Source: Calditrichia bacterium
GTDB lineage: Bacteria; Calditrichota; Calditrichia; Calditrichales; Calditrichaceae
Direction of reading: 5' to 3'
NCBI GenBank assembly: GCA_026983775.1
Contig: JALSTK010000068.1
Span: 1 to 64,000 of the forward strand
Length of the DNA stretch: 64,000 nt
Shown: positions 35,493-42,210 of the stretch, piece after piece
Layout: each line of letters opens with the position of its first letter
Numbering within the stretch: the stretch's first letter is position 1
Made by a program: the position numbers and the translations under genes
The notes under the pieces: model-generated
Databases searched by the model: none
Seen by the model: the letters and a program-made list of their open reading frames with translations, nothing else
What the model was told of the DNA's origin: nothing

Positions 35493-36668
35493 TCAAACGC
35501 TAATTCCCGTCCTATCTTTTAAAACGGTAGTAAGTGTATCAATGACTATATCCAATTGATCATAACTTATAGTAAGCGGCGGCATCAGCCTGATTACCGT
35601 GGAACCGGCAGGCAAGGTAAGTACGCCCCGCTTTTGTAATTCAGAAATATAGGGTTGAACTCTTTCTTTAAGCTCTATACCGATCATCAATCCTATTTGG
35701 CGAACTTCCCGTATGCAATCGATTTGCCGGGCGGTAAATCTTTTGAAAAAGTAATTTCCTTTTTCCATGGCCTGTTCGGCCAGGTTCTTTTCCTGCATAA
35801 ATTCAATCGTGGCCAATGCGGCGGCACTGGCTAAAGGATTACCTCCAAATGTGGTGCCATGTTTCCCCGGTTTCATTGAAATCTTATCGGAACAGACAAC
35901 GGCACCCACAGGCACTCCACCGGCCATGGCCTTGGCCAGACAGATCATATCCGGCTCAATATCAAAATGTTCGAAAGCAAACATCTTTCCGGTGCGACAA
36001 AATCCGGTCTGCACTTCATCTAAGATCAACAAAATATTTTTCTGATCACATAGATTCCGAACCCTCTGAAAATACTTTTTATCTCCGATATACACGCCAC
36101 CCGTACCCTGCACAGCCTCGAGCAGGATTGCGGCCGTGTTATCATCGACTGCCTCCGAAAGCTTTTCGAAATTATTATAGGGGACGAATTTAAAACCGGG
36201 CACAAGCGGTTCAAACCCCTTTTTATAGGAAGGATGATAGGTGGCACTGAGCGCACCAAACGTACGACCATGGAAATTCCGCATGGCACCGATAAAATTT
36301 TTTTTACGGGTGCTGTAACGGGCAAACTTCAGGGCTGCTTCTACACTCTCTGCACCGGAATTGCAAAGAAAAACCTGGTTTAAAGTATCCGGTGTTATTT
36401 CGATGAGTTTTTGGATCAGCATGGAGCGTTTATCATTCGAATAGGAGGCGGCACAGGTCATCAGCCGTGCCGCCTGTTCTCTGATCGCAGAGACAACCCG
36501 TTTATTGGCATGCCCCACGGATACAACGCCGTGTCCGCCGTTGCAATCAATGTATTCTTTTCCTTCCACATCCCAAACCGTGGCATTTTCTCCTCTTATA
36601 AGGACAAGGTGGTGTTGGTTGGATAGATGCACCGAATATTCATTTTCTATTTGGTTATAATCGATCAT
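35493..36668 (-). CDS. lysJ: LysW-gamma-lysine/ornithine aminotransferase LysJ (ArgD family)
   Basis: This PLP enzyme of the acetylornithine aminotransferase family aminates the LysW-bound semialdehyde. The 391 residues carry LCNSGAESVEAALKFAR, the ILDEVQTGF loop and the PLP lysine K246 in CLAKAMAGGVP. It starts overlapping the lysZ stop by four bases and is last in the lysW operon. Whether it also serves arginine synthesis cannot be told; the operon contains homocitrate synthase, which points to lysine. The pathway's deaminating/releasing peptidase (LysK) is not in the window. Confidence 0.88.
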   Translation of the reverse strand: MIDYNQIENEYSVHLSNQHHLVLIRGENATVWDVEGKEYIDCNGGHGVVSVGHANKRVVSAIREQAARLMTCAASYSNDKRSMLIQKLIEITPDTLNQVFLCNSGAESVEAALKFARYSTRKKNFIGAMRNFHGRTFGALSATYHPSYKKGFEPLVPGFKFVPYNNFEKLSEAVDDNTAAILLEAVQGTGGVYIGDKKYFQRVRNLCDQKNILLILDEVQTGFCRTGKMFAFEHFDIEPDMICLAKAMAGGVPVGAVVCSDKISMKPGKHGTTFGGNPLASAAALATIEFMQEKNLAEQAMEKGNYFFKRFTARQIDCIREVRQIGLMIGIELKERVQPYISELQKRGVLTLPAGSTVIRLMPPLTISYDQLDIVIDTLTTVLKDRTGISV

Positions 36669-37456
36669 TGGATAACCGTTCCTCCTCCTTGTAAAGCATG
36701 GGTCAGCGGTTGCGCAATACGACCGTCGCTGATAATGATTTTGACCGCCCCGGTTTTTAAAAGTTTGTTAATGGCAAACATTTTGCGTTTTATCCTACCG
36801 GTAGCGGTATCCTCCAACCGTTCCATCTCTTGCTTCCTAATCCGCTTGATCAGAGAATTAGGGTCATTCGGGTCCTTAAGAAGGCCGGGTGCCTCAATAA
36901 ATTGGAAAATCAATTCTGCTTGTAACGCCGCCTGCAAAACAGTAATTATGTCATCGTTATCCGAATTGATGGCCCGGTTGTTTTCATCAATGATGGGCAC
37001 AGTTAAAACCGGAACATAGCCGTTATTTAATAAAAGATTCAGAAAATTCAAATTGATGCTTTGAGGTTTTCCGGAAAAATCCCGGATAATCTTAATTTTA
37101 TGATGATCTTTCATGCGAATACCCTTGTTCCGTCTGCCCCGGATCAGTTTACCGTCCAGCCCGCAAAGTCCAACGGCATTTATGCCATATTGCTGACATA
37201 ATTCGACGATCCGCTTATTTCTCAGGCCGCTGTAAGCCATCATCATTACATCGATTGCTTTGTCATCGGAAAATACACTGCTATAACCGGAAACAGAAGT
37301 GATTACTTTTCGCGGTTGATTTAGTTTTTCTGCAATTTCGTCGCGAAGCGCATTGGCACCGTGGACGATAAGGAAGGATTCCTTTAATGCGGATAATTCC
37401 CGAAGGATCGCTTCCAAATTGATGGTCTTTCCGCCACCTATCTTTATGATCATCAT
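36665..37456 (-). CDS. lysZ: [LysW]-aminoadipate/glutamate kinase LysZ
   Basis: This amino-acid kinase (ArgB family) phosphorylates the side-chain carboxylate of the amino acid held on LysW. The 263 residues contain IIKIGGGKTINLE at the N terminus, the FLIVHGANALRDEIA loop and VPVLTVPIIDENNRAINSDND. The last block matches the substrate site of NAGK-like enzymes. It overlaps the amidotransferase stop upstream and the lysJ start downstream by four bases each. Confidence 0.88.
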   Translation of the reverse strand: MMIIKIGGGKTINLEAILRELSALKESFLIVHGANALRDEIAEKLNQPRKVITSVSGYSSVFSDDKAIDVMMMAYSGLRNKRIVELCQQYGINAVGLCGLDGKLIRGRRNKGIRMKDHHKIKIIRDFSGKPQSINLNFLNLLLNNGYVPVLTVPIIDENNRAINSDNDDIITVLQAALQAELIFQFIEAPGLLKDPNDPNSLIKRIRKQEMERLEDTATGRIKRKMFAINKLLKTGAVKIIISDGRIAQPLTHALQGGGTVIQ

Positions 37457-38091
37457 CCGAAGACCCTTTCGGTTCGGTTTGCCATGGTTTTCCAGTTTGT
37501 TTCATGATCAAGCGGTGCAGAACAGATGACTAATTTGTCTTCGGTCTGTTTATAATGTAGTGTATAATAATCCGGGTTTTCGTTAAATTGCGACAATACA
37601 TATACCTTTTCCTTGCTGGCTATAATGATGTTCATAGCCCGGATATATCGGGATCTTTCTGTAAGAATCGACCGGCCCTTTTTAAGGGCATGCTGCATAT
37701 TTCCCCGATCAAAGCGTTTCATGAAATTGAATATTTTTTCAGCACCAATTCGTCCGGATTCCCTGATTTTCACGCCGTGCAATTCACCGTTAAAAATAAA
37801 AACATAATTTCCGTCGTAAAATGGCATATTATTTTCCACAGAAATATGCTCATCACGGAAAGCACTGCGGGCATGGGCGATTAAAAGAGAGGAATTCCCG
37901 AATCGTTCAAGATCATCTTTCCAAACGGGTAAACTATTTTTATAATGGGTCCATTGTCCGTTTTTCAGAAAAGCACACCCCCAGCCGTGACCCTGATATT
38001 CTTGACTTTGTTCGGCTATTGCAGCGAAGCGTTTCAGATAATATGAAATTTTAAACTCTTCTTTTTGTCTAACGTAGAGCAGTCGACACAT
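37453..38091 (-). CDS. Class II (Ntn) glutamine amidotransferase-like protein
   Basis: This stand-alone class II glutamine amidohydrolase has 212 residues. Cys2 is exposed after Met removal (MCRLLYV), and the fold carries the expected HARSAF arginine (R75) and the FNGELHG oxyanion Asn-Gly (101-102). The C-terminal SAPLDHE segment resembles YafJ-type proteins. No synthetase partner domain is attached. It lies inside the LysW operon between lysY and lysZ, in frame overlap with lysZ, which is a strange place for a glutaminase since no amidation is known in the pathway. LysW here ends in Gln, which could be its substrate (see findings). Confidence 0.88.
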   Translation of the reverse strand: MCRLLYVRQKEEFKISYYLKRFAAIAEQSQEYQGHGWGCAFLKNGQWTHYKNSLPVWKDDLERFGNSSLLIAHARSAFRDEHISVENNMPFYDGNYVFIFNGELHGVKIRESGRIGAEKIFNFMKRFDRGNMQHALKKGRSILTERSRYIRAMNIIIASKEKVYVLSQFNENPDYYTLHYKQTEDKLVICSAPLDHETNWKTMANRTERVFG

Positions 38092-38110: not shown

Positions 38111-39157
38111 TCAGATGGGGTGCAGTCCCGGAAAAGATAAGGCGGTGGTTTCTTCCCACCCGAACATAATATTTAAGGCCTGGACGGCTTGTCCGGCTGC
38201 TCCCTTCATTAAATTGTCAAGGGCACTGATCAATACCAGACGGTCGGATGATTCGTCCAGAGAAAATCCGATATCACAAAAATTAGTGCCGATAAGCAAC
38301 TTAGGCTCAGGAAAGCGGTAATTCCCGTCCGCTTCTTTCACTAACCGTATAAAGGGTTCTTTCCCGTATGTTTGACGATAGATCTTCCATATATCCCGTT
38401 CCTTAAGTTTGCGGTTCAAAAATACATGGCAGGTAGCCAGAACCCCGCGCACCATTTCGATCGATGTAGCCGAAAAGTGAATGGTTATGTCGCGGTCAAA
38501 AGTGAGTTCCTGTACTATTTCCGCCACATGACGGTGGCCGGTAGGGGCAAAGGATCGTACCGCTCCGCTACGTACGGGATGATGGGAAGAAGCGTTATTC
38601 CTGTTTCCCCCCTCGCTGGAGCCGACTTTAACCTCCACTACCGTTCGATCCGTTTGAACCAAATTATTTTTATAAAAAGGGTAGAGGGCCAAAATGGTGG
38701 CGGTTGCATTACAACCGGCGCTGGAAATCCATTTCGCGTTAACCATATCTTTCCGGTGAAGTTCGGGAATACCGTAGATGAATTGGTTTAAATATTCAGG
38801 ACAGGCGTGCCCCCGCTTATACCAATGGTGATACACTTCTTTGGAAGTAAGGCGGAAATCTGCGCTCAGGTCAATGATTCTTTCCGCTTTTTGGATGAAT
38901 TGGTCTATCTTCCTCATGGCCGAGCCATGGGGTAAAGCAAGAAAAAGAACGTCGCATGCCTCTAAATCATCTAACGAAGAAAATTTCAAATTTGTTAATT
39001 TACGCAGGTTCGGATGGACCTTAAATAGAAATTTTCCCGAATAGTGTTCCGAAGTAACCTGTTGAATCCTGACATGAGGATGAAAAAACAACAATCGTAA
39101 AAGCTCACCGCCGGCATAGCCCGAGCCTCCGGCAATGGAAACATTAATTTTATTCAT
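38111..39157 (-). CDS. lysY: [LysW]-aminoadipate semialdehyde/glutamate semialdehyde dehydrogenase LysY (ArgC family)
   Basis: LysY reduces the LysW-bound acyl phosphate to the semialdehyde with NADPH. The 348 residues begin with the Rossmann loop AGGSGYAGGELLRLL and carry the catalytic Cys149 in SSAGCNATATILAL. The C-terminal EGGNRNNASSHHPVR segment is the ArgC/LysY type. It is separated from lysX by five bases and from the amidotransferase by nineteen. Confidence 0.9.
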   Translation of the reverse strand: MNKINVSIAGGSGYAGGELLRLLFFHPHVRIQQVTSEHYSGKFLFKVHPNLRKLTNLKFSSLDDLEACDVLFLALPHGSAMRKIDQFIQKAERIIDLSADFRLTSKEVYHHWYKRGHACPEYLNQFIYGIPELHRKDMVNAKWISSAGCNATATILALYPFYKNNLVQTDRTVVEVKVGSSEGGNRNNASSHHPVRSGAVRSFAPTGHRHVAEIVQELTFDRDITIHFSATSIEMVRGVLATCHVFLNRKLKERDIWKIYRQTYGKEPFIRLVKEADGNYRFPEPKLLIGTNFCDIGFSLDESSDRLVLISALDNLMKGAAGQAVQALNIMFGWEETTALSFPGLHPI

Positions 39158-39162
39158 GGGGT

Positions 39163-40005
39163 TTATTCCTGAGCGGTTTTGAGAACATAATCCACAATTT
39201 TTCCCGGAATATTTACCCCGGTTGTCTCGATACTGTTTTTGAATTCCATGGTATAATTCACTTCGTTTACCAGTAACCCCCGATCGGTTTCAAACAAATC
39301 AATGGCCACCACGCCGTTCCCAACCGCTTGCGCAGCCCGAAGAGATATTGCGCTAATTTCATCCGTAACCGGACAGTTCGAAGCCGTGCCTCCCCGGGCG
39401 GTATTGGTAATCCAATGGTCGGAAGAACGATAGATAGCGGCGATACACTCGTTACCAACAACAAAAGAGCGGATGTCACGTCCCCTTTTTTCAATATATT
39501 TCTGAATATAAAATATGGAGTGGTGATAACTGCCCAATATTTTTTTATGCTCAAGAAGCGCTTCAGCGGCATCGCGATCGTTGATTTTGGCAATCAAACG
39601 GCCCCATGAACCGACCGCAGGTTTCAGGACCACAGGATAGCCGATCTCTTCGATAGCCCTCAGGGCAGAAGCCTCCGTAAAGGCGATACTTACAGGCGGC
39701 TGAGCAATCCCATGCGCCCGCAATGCTCTGGATGTTAATAACTTATCCCCACAGGTCGAGGCTACTTCCGGTGTATTCACACAGGTTATTCCTGCATCGG
39801 AAAATAGATGTAAAGCATGCAAAGCGCGGGAATGATTAATGGATCGTTCTATAATGACATCAAATGAAAAATGATCTTTTTGTAAATTAAAAATCAATTC
39901 CCGGTCATCAATCATTTCCAGTTCCACTCCTTTTCTTGATCTGAATTCATGCAAAAGGAGTTTTTCCTCTTTTCTTAACAGAGAATGAAGAAATCCGACT
40001 TTCAA
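39163..40005 (-). CDS. lysX: LysW ligase LysX (ATP-grasp, RimK family)
   Basis: LysX couples the alpha-amino group of alpha-aminoadipate (or glutamate) to the C-terminal Glu side chain of LysW. Its 280 residues show the ATP-grasp order: [28 protein letters not shown], the hinge [29 protein letters not shown], and the metal-binding [15 protein letters not shown] ending. These blocks match the Thermus-type LysX closely. A 109-base gap with an inverted repeat (TTGTCA..TGACAA, 40070-40083) separates it from homocitrate synthase. An acceptor ending in Gln, as LysW here, would have to be deamidated first. Confidence 0.9.
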
Positions 40006-40114: not shown

Positions 40115-41263
40115 TTAAACCGGATGTTTCCGGCACCAATCGACTATATGGCCCAGTTCGGATAAATCTACTATCCGGCCTTTCCTGCCGATGGATTTTA
40201 CCTGATCCAAAATGCGCAACAACATTGTTTTATCGACTTGGATCGATAATTTTTCCAGAGCCCACTCGATGGAAGACAGACCGGACATATGATCCAAAGA
40301 AACATGCATATCACGACCGACCAGTGCGGGATCCAGACTTTGGTAATGTAAAGGATTTTTTACGGCGGCATGGGTATGGACTCCCGCACAATGCGTAAAG
40401 GCGTTTTTACCGATAATAGGGAAATTCACGGGAATAGGAATCCCGGAATAATTGCTTACCAGCCCATATAGTTCCGGGAGTTTTTCAAGACGCCATGTAT
40501 TCCCGAGATTAAAATCATTTTTCAGACTAACGAGTAACTGGGCCAAATCGACGATCCCGGCCCGTTCACCAAGCCCAAGAACACTGGCATCAATGATTTC
40601 CGCACCGGCACGAAAACCATCGATGGCATTGGCCAGAGCATAGCCACGATCATTATGGCAATGAACGGCTATTTTCGGAAATAAATTGTGTGCAGCTAGA
40701 GTTTCTTTCAGCCTGGAAACGTAATCATACAAATTATGCTCAGTGCCGGGAATCATGAATCCGGTTGTATCGGCCACGCTGATAATATCGGCTCCGGCCT
40801 GGACAGCGGCCAGAGAAGCCTCGATTACATTGGAAAACGGGGAACGAACCGTATCTTCCGGTGTGTAGCGGATTACCAAATCCGGATTTTTATTTTTTGC
40901 ATAGGCGATGACCTCGGCAATCTGATCAACCGCACTCCCTAAATCTTTTTTAAAAACGTGATTCAATCGTGAATCGGAAACGCAGAAAAAAATCCCGAGG
41001 AAATTTACATTGCATTCCAGGGCTAAATCGATATCCTGTTTCAGGGAACGGGCATGGGCACCGATCGACGCTTTCAGATTATGAGCGGACAATTGCTGCA
41101 CCGCTTCAAAAATTTCCTTACTTACCACCGGATGTCCGGCCTCAATGATATCTATTCCGATCTCATCCAAAATATCGGCAATAGCCAATTTGATATGATT
41201 GTCGAAATAGACTCCCGGAGTTTGTTCTCCTTCTCTTAAAGTGGTGTCAAGAATTCGGACCAT
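40115..41263 (-). CDS. lysS: Homocitrate synthase (LysS/NifV type)
   Basis: This enzyme condenses 2-oxoglutarate with acetyl-CoA, the first step of the aminoadipate lysine pathway. The 382 residues start ILDTTLREGEQTPGVYF and include ADTTGFMIPGTEHNL, the metal-binding HCHNDRGYALANAID and GLGERAGIVDL. The length and the REGEQTPGV motif favour homocitrate synthase over isopropylmalate synthase, which has an extra regulatory domain. The ATG is two bases after the lysW stop, so the two are coupled. Homoaconitase and homoisocitrate dehydrogenase genes are not in the window. Confidence 0.85.
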   Translation of the reverse strand: MVRILDTTLREGEQTPGVYFDNHIKLAIADILDEIGIDIIEAGHPVVSKEIFEAVQQLSAHNLKASIGAHARSLKQDIDLALECNVNFLGIFFCVSDSRLNHVFKKDLGSAVDQIAEVIAYAKNKNPDLVIRYTPEDTVRSPFSNVIEASLAAVQAGADIISVADTTGFMIPGTEHNLYDYVSRLKETLAAHNLFPKIAVHCHNDRGYALANAIDGFRAGAEIIDASVLGLGERAGIVDLAQLLVSLKNDFNLGNTWRLEKLPELYGLVSNYSGIPIPVNFPIIGKNAFTHCAGVHTHAAVKNPLHYQSLDPALVGRDMHVSLDHMSGLSSIEWALEKLSIQVDKTMLLRILDQVKSIGRKGRIVDLSELGHIVDWCRKHPV

Positions 41264-41265
41264 TT

Positions 41266-41442
41266 TTATTGCCCCCAGTCTTCCTCTTCCATGGGGGCTT
41301 CAGCCAGCCGGGGGGGAAGAGTGCTCTTGATTTCCAATTCACTTCCACATTCGGGACAGGTTAGTAATTCACCCTGTTCCGATCCTTCGGCCAGAATGAT
41401 CTCTGCCGAACAGACGGGGCATTCCGTTTTATTCTGTACCAT
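41266..41442 (-). CDS. lysW: Amino-group carrier protein LysW with C-terminal Gln
   Basis: LysW is the small acidic carrier on which lysine (or arginine) intermediates are built. The 58-residue protein has a zinc ribbon (Cys8, Cys11, Cys29, Cys32), a basic/proline bend and the family tail EEEDWG. The last residue before the stop is Gln (codon CAA at 41271-41269), whereas known LysW proteins end in Glu, which receives the substrate. The ATG at 41442 is six bases after AGGAG; another ATG is directly upstream (41445). It is the first gene of the operon and was too short for standard ORF scans. Confidence 0.9.
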   Translation of the reverse strand: MVQNKTECPVCSAEIILAEGSEQGELLTCPECGSELEIKSTLPPRLAEAPMEEEDWGQ

Positions 41443-41469
41443 CATCTTCTCCTGTTTAATGGTTTTTAG

Positions 41470-41556: not shown

Positions 41557-42210
41557 ATGATAACCATCAATGAACTTCTGAGACAGATCATCCTCAAGAC
41601 TCCCTTTTTAGAAGAAGGAATTGTACAGGGGATTATAAATCTTTCCGCCTTATCCAGAAAAGTGAAGCCTGAAATCGAACAGGAACTCATGAAGCCGGTC
41701 AGCGAAAGCGCGATTCTCATGGCCTTAAAAAGGCTTATTCCTTCTCTCAAAGAGAGACAAAAAGGTAGAGAAATTTATTTGAAAACGGAAGATATCACCG
41801 TTCGTTCGGGCCTGACCGAGTTTACTTTTTTAAAATCCGGGACCTCTTTAAAGAAGAAAATACAACTTTTAAGCGTTCTGCAAGAAAGCGAGACCAATTT
41901 CGTAACCTTTACACAAGGTGTACGCGAAATTACCATGATCATTAATGCGGACCTGGAAACAGGGCTTGAAAAAATATTTAAAACGGAAAAACTGATTAAG
42001 AAGATTACAGACCTGGCGGCAATAACGATTCGTCTTTCCAAGGAGTCGGTTTATCTTCCCGGAGTGCATTATAACATTCTAAAACAATTAGCCTGGCATA
42101 ATATTAATGTCATTGAAGTCGTATCTACTTATACGGAACTCAATATTATTCTTCATAAAAAACAGATCGATACTTCCTTTTCCATATTGTTGAATTTTTT
42201 ATCCGACTGA
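41557..42210 (+). CDS. ACT-domain protein divergent from the LysW operon
   Basis: The 217-residue protein has a helical N-terminal part (1-95, possibly a winged helix, PVSESAILMALKRL) and two ACT-like parts. The C-terminal one is clear (SVYLPGVHYNILKQLAWHNINVIEVVSTYTELNIIL) and resembles the ACT regions of aspartate kinase. ACT domains bind amino acids. With its start facing lysW over 110 bases, it is a good candidate for an amino-acid-responsive regulator of the lysine operon. No catalytic domain is seen. Confidence 0.8.
   Translation: MITINELLRQIILKTPFLEEGIVQGIINLSALSRKVKPEIEQELMKPVSESAILMALKRLIPSLKERQKGREIYLKTEDITVRSGLTEFTFLKSGTSLKKKIQLLSVLQESETNFVTFTQGVREITMIINADLETGLEKIFKTEKLIKKITDLAAITIRLSKESVYLPGVHYNILKQLAWHNINVIEVVSTYTELNIILHKKQIDTSFSILLNFLSD

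Follow-up and report, generated by a model that had tools for sequence, protein, structure and literature searches.

The window, by which the whole 64,000-nucleotide stretch of DNA analysed is meant, carries on its minus strand a tightly packed gene cluster in the order lysW, a homocitrate-synthase-like gene, lysX, lysY, the gene for a 212-aa amidohydrolase, lysZ and lysJ. The lysW ORF (41266-41445, minus strand) encodes a carrier of 59 aa from its first ATG, MMVQNKTECPVCSAEIILAEGSEQGELLTCPECGSELEIKSTLPPRLAEAPMEEEDWGQ, with a zinc ribbon (CPVC...CPEC) and the acidic tail EEEDWGQ. With the LysW equivalog model TIGR01206 it reaches 61.3 bits, above the cut-off of 53.2, and it also matches the Pfam family Zn_ribbon_LysW (PF21344). 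The homocitrate-synthase-like gene follows 2 bp after the lysW stop (40115-41263, minus strand), and its product matches HMGL-like and HCS_D2, and TIGR02146 at 345 bits, which is below the cut-off of that model. The LysX ligase (39163-40005, minus strand; TIGR02144, 336 bits against a cut-off of 275.6) keeps the GSWGR motif, by which the LysW tail is reportedly read. LysY, an ArgC-like reductase (38111-39157, minus strand), matches TIGR01850 at 393 bits. The amidohydrolase (37453-38091, minus strand) begins with Met-Cys and belongs to the EgtC-like Ntn enzymes of class-II glutamine-amidotransferase fold. LysZ, the [LysW]-aminoadipate kinase (36665-37456, minus strand), reaches 254.9 bits with NF010659 (cut-off, 223), and the LysJ-like aminotransferase (35493-36668, minus strand) is over the cut-off of TIGR00707, with NF042418 (LysJ) as its top match, below cut-off. 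The amidohydrolase and lysZ genes overlap by 4 bp, as do lysZ and lysJ. The occurrence of LysX, LysZ, LysY and LysJ together in one cluster, with LysX and LysZ over equivalog cut-offs, fits the LysW-mediated alpha-aminoadipate pathway (the LysW pathway). The order of genes in clusters of the amidohydrolase type is conserved among relatives, the enzyme normally lying between LysY and LysZ. Upstream of lysW, a divergent ORF of 217 aa (41557-42210, plus strand) has no Pfam match. Its homologues are also divergent beside lysW at other loci (L017/L018 and L126/L163), and it may regulate the lysW cluster.

The last codon of lysW is CAA (Gln; 41271-41269, minus strand), followed by the stop TAA. The first-pass annotation had reported this tail and codon; both are confirmed in the sequence, and the Gln end is shared by 17 genomes. 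The protein is without the C-terminal Glu by which a LysW is recognized, and the match to TIGR01206 stops at position 53 of 54. A terminal Gln of LysW cannot be loaded; Glu is needed. In ArgW of Natrinema gari, changing the terminal Glu to Ala gives auxotrophy (PMC10433800). No second LysW, Glu-ended or otherwise, was found in the genome (draft assembly, 179 contigs, 4.03 Mb), the next match having E = 0.36. That the protein should be functional and decay unlikely, as had also been proposed, is borne out by the intact four zinc cysteines and acidic tail, by the single copy and by the recurrence of Gln elsewhere.

The end of LysW was compared across genomes, most of which are metagenome assemblies. 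In clusters of the amidohydrolase type (53 genomes), LysW ends in Glu in 36 (24 GAA, 12 GAG) and in Gln in 17 (9 CAG, 8 CAA). Where a LysW-LysX neighbourhood has no amidohydrolase in its cluster, the end is Glu in 28 of 28 and Gln in none. The difference (17/53 vs 0/28) gives a Fisher p of 3e-4 when relatedness is ignored. The two residues are mixed even inside families, so that the prospect raised in the first-pass annotation, that an alignment might find all orthologues ending in Glu, is not met. The Gln-ended proteins include that of L053, whose record is titled Stygiobacter electus strain 09-Me. Six clusters are interrupted by contig ends, and these were checked genome-wide: in five (G013, G019, G037, G170 and G269, of which G269, G170 and G013 are Gln-ended) the amidohydrolase is on another contig, and in the Glu-ended G017 none was found in the genome. 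Every genome with a Gln-ended LysW also encodes the amidohydrolase, from which it can be predicted where further such LysW proteins will occur. The enzyme is also present with a Glu end in four further genomes, reached through the phylum of G182 (G903, G978, G1062 and G1100). In Deinococcota, the amidohydrolase is absent from all 49 genomes; the tail is EDWGE in 31/31 further loci, and the best-scoring LysW match of each remaining genome reaches the last profile position.

No terminal residue besides Glu or Gln was seen in canonical LysW-LysX clusters. Although a single base change would also lead to codons for Lys, Asp, Gly, Ala and Val, none of these residues is seen at the LysW end in the 53 rows. 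Three LysW-like proteins without LysX nearby end differently, L157 (EEEEWGD), L161 (DEDWDD) and L162 (EEEDWDE, with LysJ adjoining), and are possibly carriers of another kind. At L054, in a record titled Nanoarchaeota archaeon, a tail EECDWGQ is accompanied by the amidohydrolase and three LysX-like ORFs, on a long branch. In Thermus-like loci (L074-L098), a second zinc-ribbon ORF adjoins lysW; it is similar to LysW and ends in ...DWSEVEEEDEEW, without the WGE end.

The history of the terminal residue was followed on a quick 62-row tree of LysX+LysY, in which many branches are weak. The Glu/Gln label changes 10 times, at least 7 of the changes being forced by the branches starred on the tree. 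Branch length amounts to 16.1 with the amidohydrolase and 11.4 without; on the 11.4 units no switch is seen against 5-7 expected, giving P of about 0.007 to 0.0008 at a constant rate. The P value is rough, given the weak branches and the presence of a distal homologue of the enzyme in one of the enzyme-less rows, L151 (G514). Since the switches are between Glu and Gln alone, the pattern argues for functional equivalence of the two at the LysW end in these genomes, and against tolerance of any other residue there.

Genomes with the amidohydrolase lack LysK. A LysK (TIGR01902) over the cut-off occurs neither in 51 genomes, all enzyme-bearing except perhaps G017, nor in 12 further enzyme-bearing ones (0/63 in total), but 25 of the 28 LysW-LysX genomes whose cluster is without the amidohydrolase have one. 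In the window genome, too, no LysK is over the cut-off, its own best match reaching 106.5 bits against 163.1. The LysK-less exceptions among the 28 are G747 (79% complete), G514 and G651, all with LysW-Glu. When 385 genomes were searched with a 26-row alignment of the amidohydrolase, four genomes outside the phylum of the window matched at 1e-15 or better, including G514 and G651 (1.6e-31 and 7.1e-30; loci L260 and L261), where the homologue lies away from the lysW cluster. The link is weaker in G651 because the neighbours of its homologue are ABC-transport and oxidoreductase genes. Other M20 peptidases, scoring short of the LysK cut-off, are present in many of the amidohydrolase-bearing genomes. 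In G353, where contig C1 (3,300,414 bases) is essentially the whole 3.3 Mb genome, an amidohydrolase-type cluster is present, and neither a LysA match at 1e-30 nor a LysK-like M20 match at 1e-20 was found. The LysW route with the amidohydrolase therefore looks like the sole way to lysine there.

The amidohydrolase itself has an intact active site. Cys2, Arg75 and Asn101-Gly102 are invariant in 46/46 aligned members, and the Arg and Asn-Gly align with the matching residues of EgtC. PF13230 matches 23 of 26 members at E 0.01, the window protein being over its cut-off. An AlphaFold2 model has a mean pLDDT of 87 (residues 78-88 are uncertain), and the first 13 PDB matches of that model in Foldseek are all EgtC (TM 0.77-0.79, probability 1.00). 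With a Cys after Met1, the Arg and Asn-Gly motifs and the fold, the features of a class-II glutamine-amidotransferase-fold Ntn enzyme are all present. EgtC itself was considered as its identity and rejected, the TIGR03442 score being 51.6 bits against an equivalog cut-off of 218.65. That score, together with an identity to EgtC of only 15-18% in the structural match, means that the substrate is inferred. EgtC hydrolyses a gamma-glutamyl amide, the type of bond found both in the Gln side chain and in LysW-gamma-lysine. The enzyme is retained just as strictly in clusters with a Glu-ended LysW, from which it follows that deamidation is not its sole job; its main task is most likely to stand in for LysK and release the product.

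The product of the window cluster is likely to be lysine, an inference that rests on LysX and LysZ passing the aminoadipate-type models, on the homocitrate-synthase-like gene in the cluster and on the separate arginine locus of Caldithrix abyssi. In the genome paper on that organism, a LysWXZYJ-Hcs locus is described, as is a separate arginine locus with ArgE (PMC5317091). Lysine synthesis is there considered possibly to involve non-orthologous displacement, the amidohydrolase not being named in those passages (PMC5317091). The window genome also encodes LysA, and lysine may therefore not depend on the LysW pathway in this organism. Six amidohydrolase-bearing LysW clusters (L035, L056, L164, L171, L173 and L175) are without a homocitrate-synthase gene, and their product is perhaps ornithine or another compound.

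Taken together, we believe, with a probability of about 0.72, that these genomes use a variant of the LysW pathway in which the EgtC-like Ntn amidohydrolase replaces LysK and also deamidates Gln-ended LysW. LysW would be made with a C-terminal Gln. The N-terminal Cys of the amidohydrolase, exposed by removal of Met, would hydrolyse the side-chain amide to yield LysW-Glu and ammonia, and LysX would then ligate alpha-aminoadipate to the new gamma-carboxylate. After LysZ, LysY and LysJ had acted on the carried substrate, the same amidohydrolase would cut the gamma-glutamyl amide of LysW-gamma-lysine, giving free lysine and regenerated LysW-Glu. Deamidation would be needed only once per LysW molecule. 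If one enzyme cuts both gamma-amides, terminal Glu and Gln become nearly equivalent and could drift back and forth. The Gln codon, the cluster, the co-occurrence, the exclusion of LysK, the repeated switching, the intact active site and the EgtC-like fold are computed results; the two activities, deamidation and release, and lysine as the product are inferred, with no biochemistry behind them. Speaking against the variant, the gamma-glutamyl amino acid bound by EgtC-type enzymes is free, but the alpha-amino group of the LysW Glu is in a peptide bond. The product might also be released instead by the M20 peptidases below the LysK cut-off, or by an ArgE such as that in the arginine locus of Caldithrix abyssi. 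The first-pass annotation had held that LysW-Gln would need deamidation, as Pup does by Dop, and the comparative evidence favours this, the deamidation itself remaining an inference. To it are added a likely deamidase in the same operon (37453-38091), the wide spread of the trait and, as the main job of the enzyme, probably the replacement of LysK.

The reading closest to this variant makes the amidohydrolase a replacement of LysK only, with LysW-Gln deamidated by something else or spontaneously. Release would indeed suffice for conservation of the enzyme, as its presence in Glu-ended clusters attests, but Gln occurs only alongside it, in both reactions the bond hydrolysed is the gamma-glutamyl amide of one and the same residue, and the window cluster is without any other deamidase; we regard this reading as unlikely. 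Slightly less likely still is that the enzyme serves solely for deamidation, or as a transferase by which the Gln amide is exchanged directly for alpha-aminoadipate via a gamma-glutamyl thioester, without LysX, and that an M20 peptidase such as ArgE releases the product. Enzymes of class-II amidotransferase fold form a gamma-glutamyl thioester, and the M20 paralogues below cut-off in many genomes could be counted in its favour. However, wherever the contig extends far enough, such a cluster includes LysX (GSWGR in 18/18 checked), the enzyme is no less conserved where LysW ends in Glu, some enzyme-bearing genomes are without an M20 match at 1e-20, and two of the three LysK-less exceptions have the distal homologue.

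Two further explanations are very unlikely. An error, a strain variant or a decaying gene could be invoked for a window from a draft assembly, but hardly for 17 genomes, L053 included, with at least 7 switches and both CAA and CAG in use, nor for a single-copy LysW with its zinc cysteines and tail intact. Sequencing error and decay were rejected as the cause, being contradicted by the distribution and the repeated switching. Even less can be said for the Gln being decoded or extended differently, by stop readthrough or a frameshift restoring Glu: no supporting evidence was seen, and readthrough was rejected on the strength of the stop after the Gln codon, which differs between genomes (TAA, TAG or TGA).

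The proposed variant suggests what releases the product of the LysW pathway across Calditrichota, Ignavibacteria and other, scattered lineages: the amidohydrolase would be the missing enzyme, a gap that the genome paper on Caldithrix abyssi left open (PMC5317091). No description of a Gln-ended LysW with a partner amidohydrolase was found in the open-access papers searched. Compared with the LysW pathway of Thermus thermophilus and Sulfolobus, the carrier, GSWGR ligase, kinase, reductase, aminotransferase and the homocitrate-synthase-like gene in the cluster are the same. However, that pathway has LysK, while in the window variant LysK is absent, the EgtC-like Ntn amidohydrolase is in the cluster and the carrier is Gln-ended. 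With EgtC of ergothioneine biosynthesis (PDB 4ZFJ/4ZFK/4ZFL), the amidohydrolase shares the fold, the N-terminal Cys, the Arg and Asn-Gly motifs and, by inference, gamma-glutamyl amide hydrolysis; it differs in falling below the EgtC model cut-off, in being encoded with LysW genes and in its presumed substrate, a protein C terminus. The closest likeness in logic is to Pup and Dop of actinobacteria, where Dop deamidates PupGln and removes Pup from its targets, and the last residue of Pup is Gln or Glu depending on the species (PMC12288473). Both systems have a small protein, encoded with Gln or Glu according to species, that is joined to an amine through the side chain of its C-terminal Glu, and one enzyme that deamidates it and removes the conjugate, both activities being inferred for the LysW amidohydrolase. 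On balance we lean towards a second, independently evolved instance of this logic, an inactive Gln carrier being activated by its own unloading Ntn amidohydrolase, with deamidation possibly also acting as a gate that controls when new LysW is admitted to the making of lysine. The protein-tag chemistry (Gln-encoded, deamidated, ligated and released, the deamidation and release being inferred) would then have arisen again in primary metabolism. In spite of the likeness, the carrier and enzyme families are unrelated, and LysW, unlike Pup, serves biosynthesis rather than degradation.
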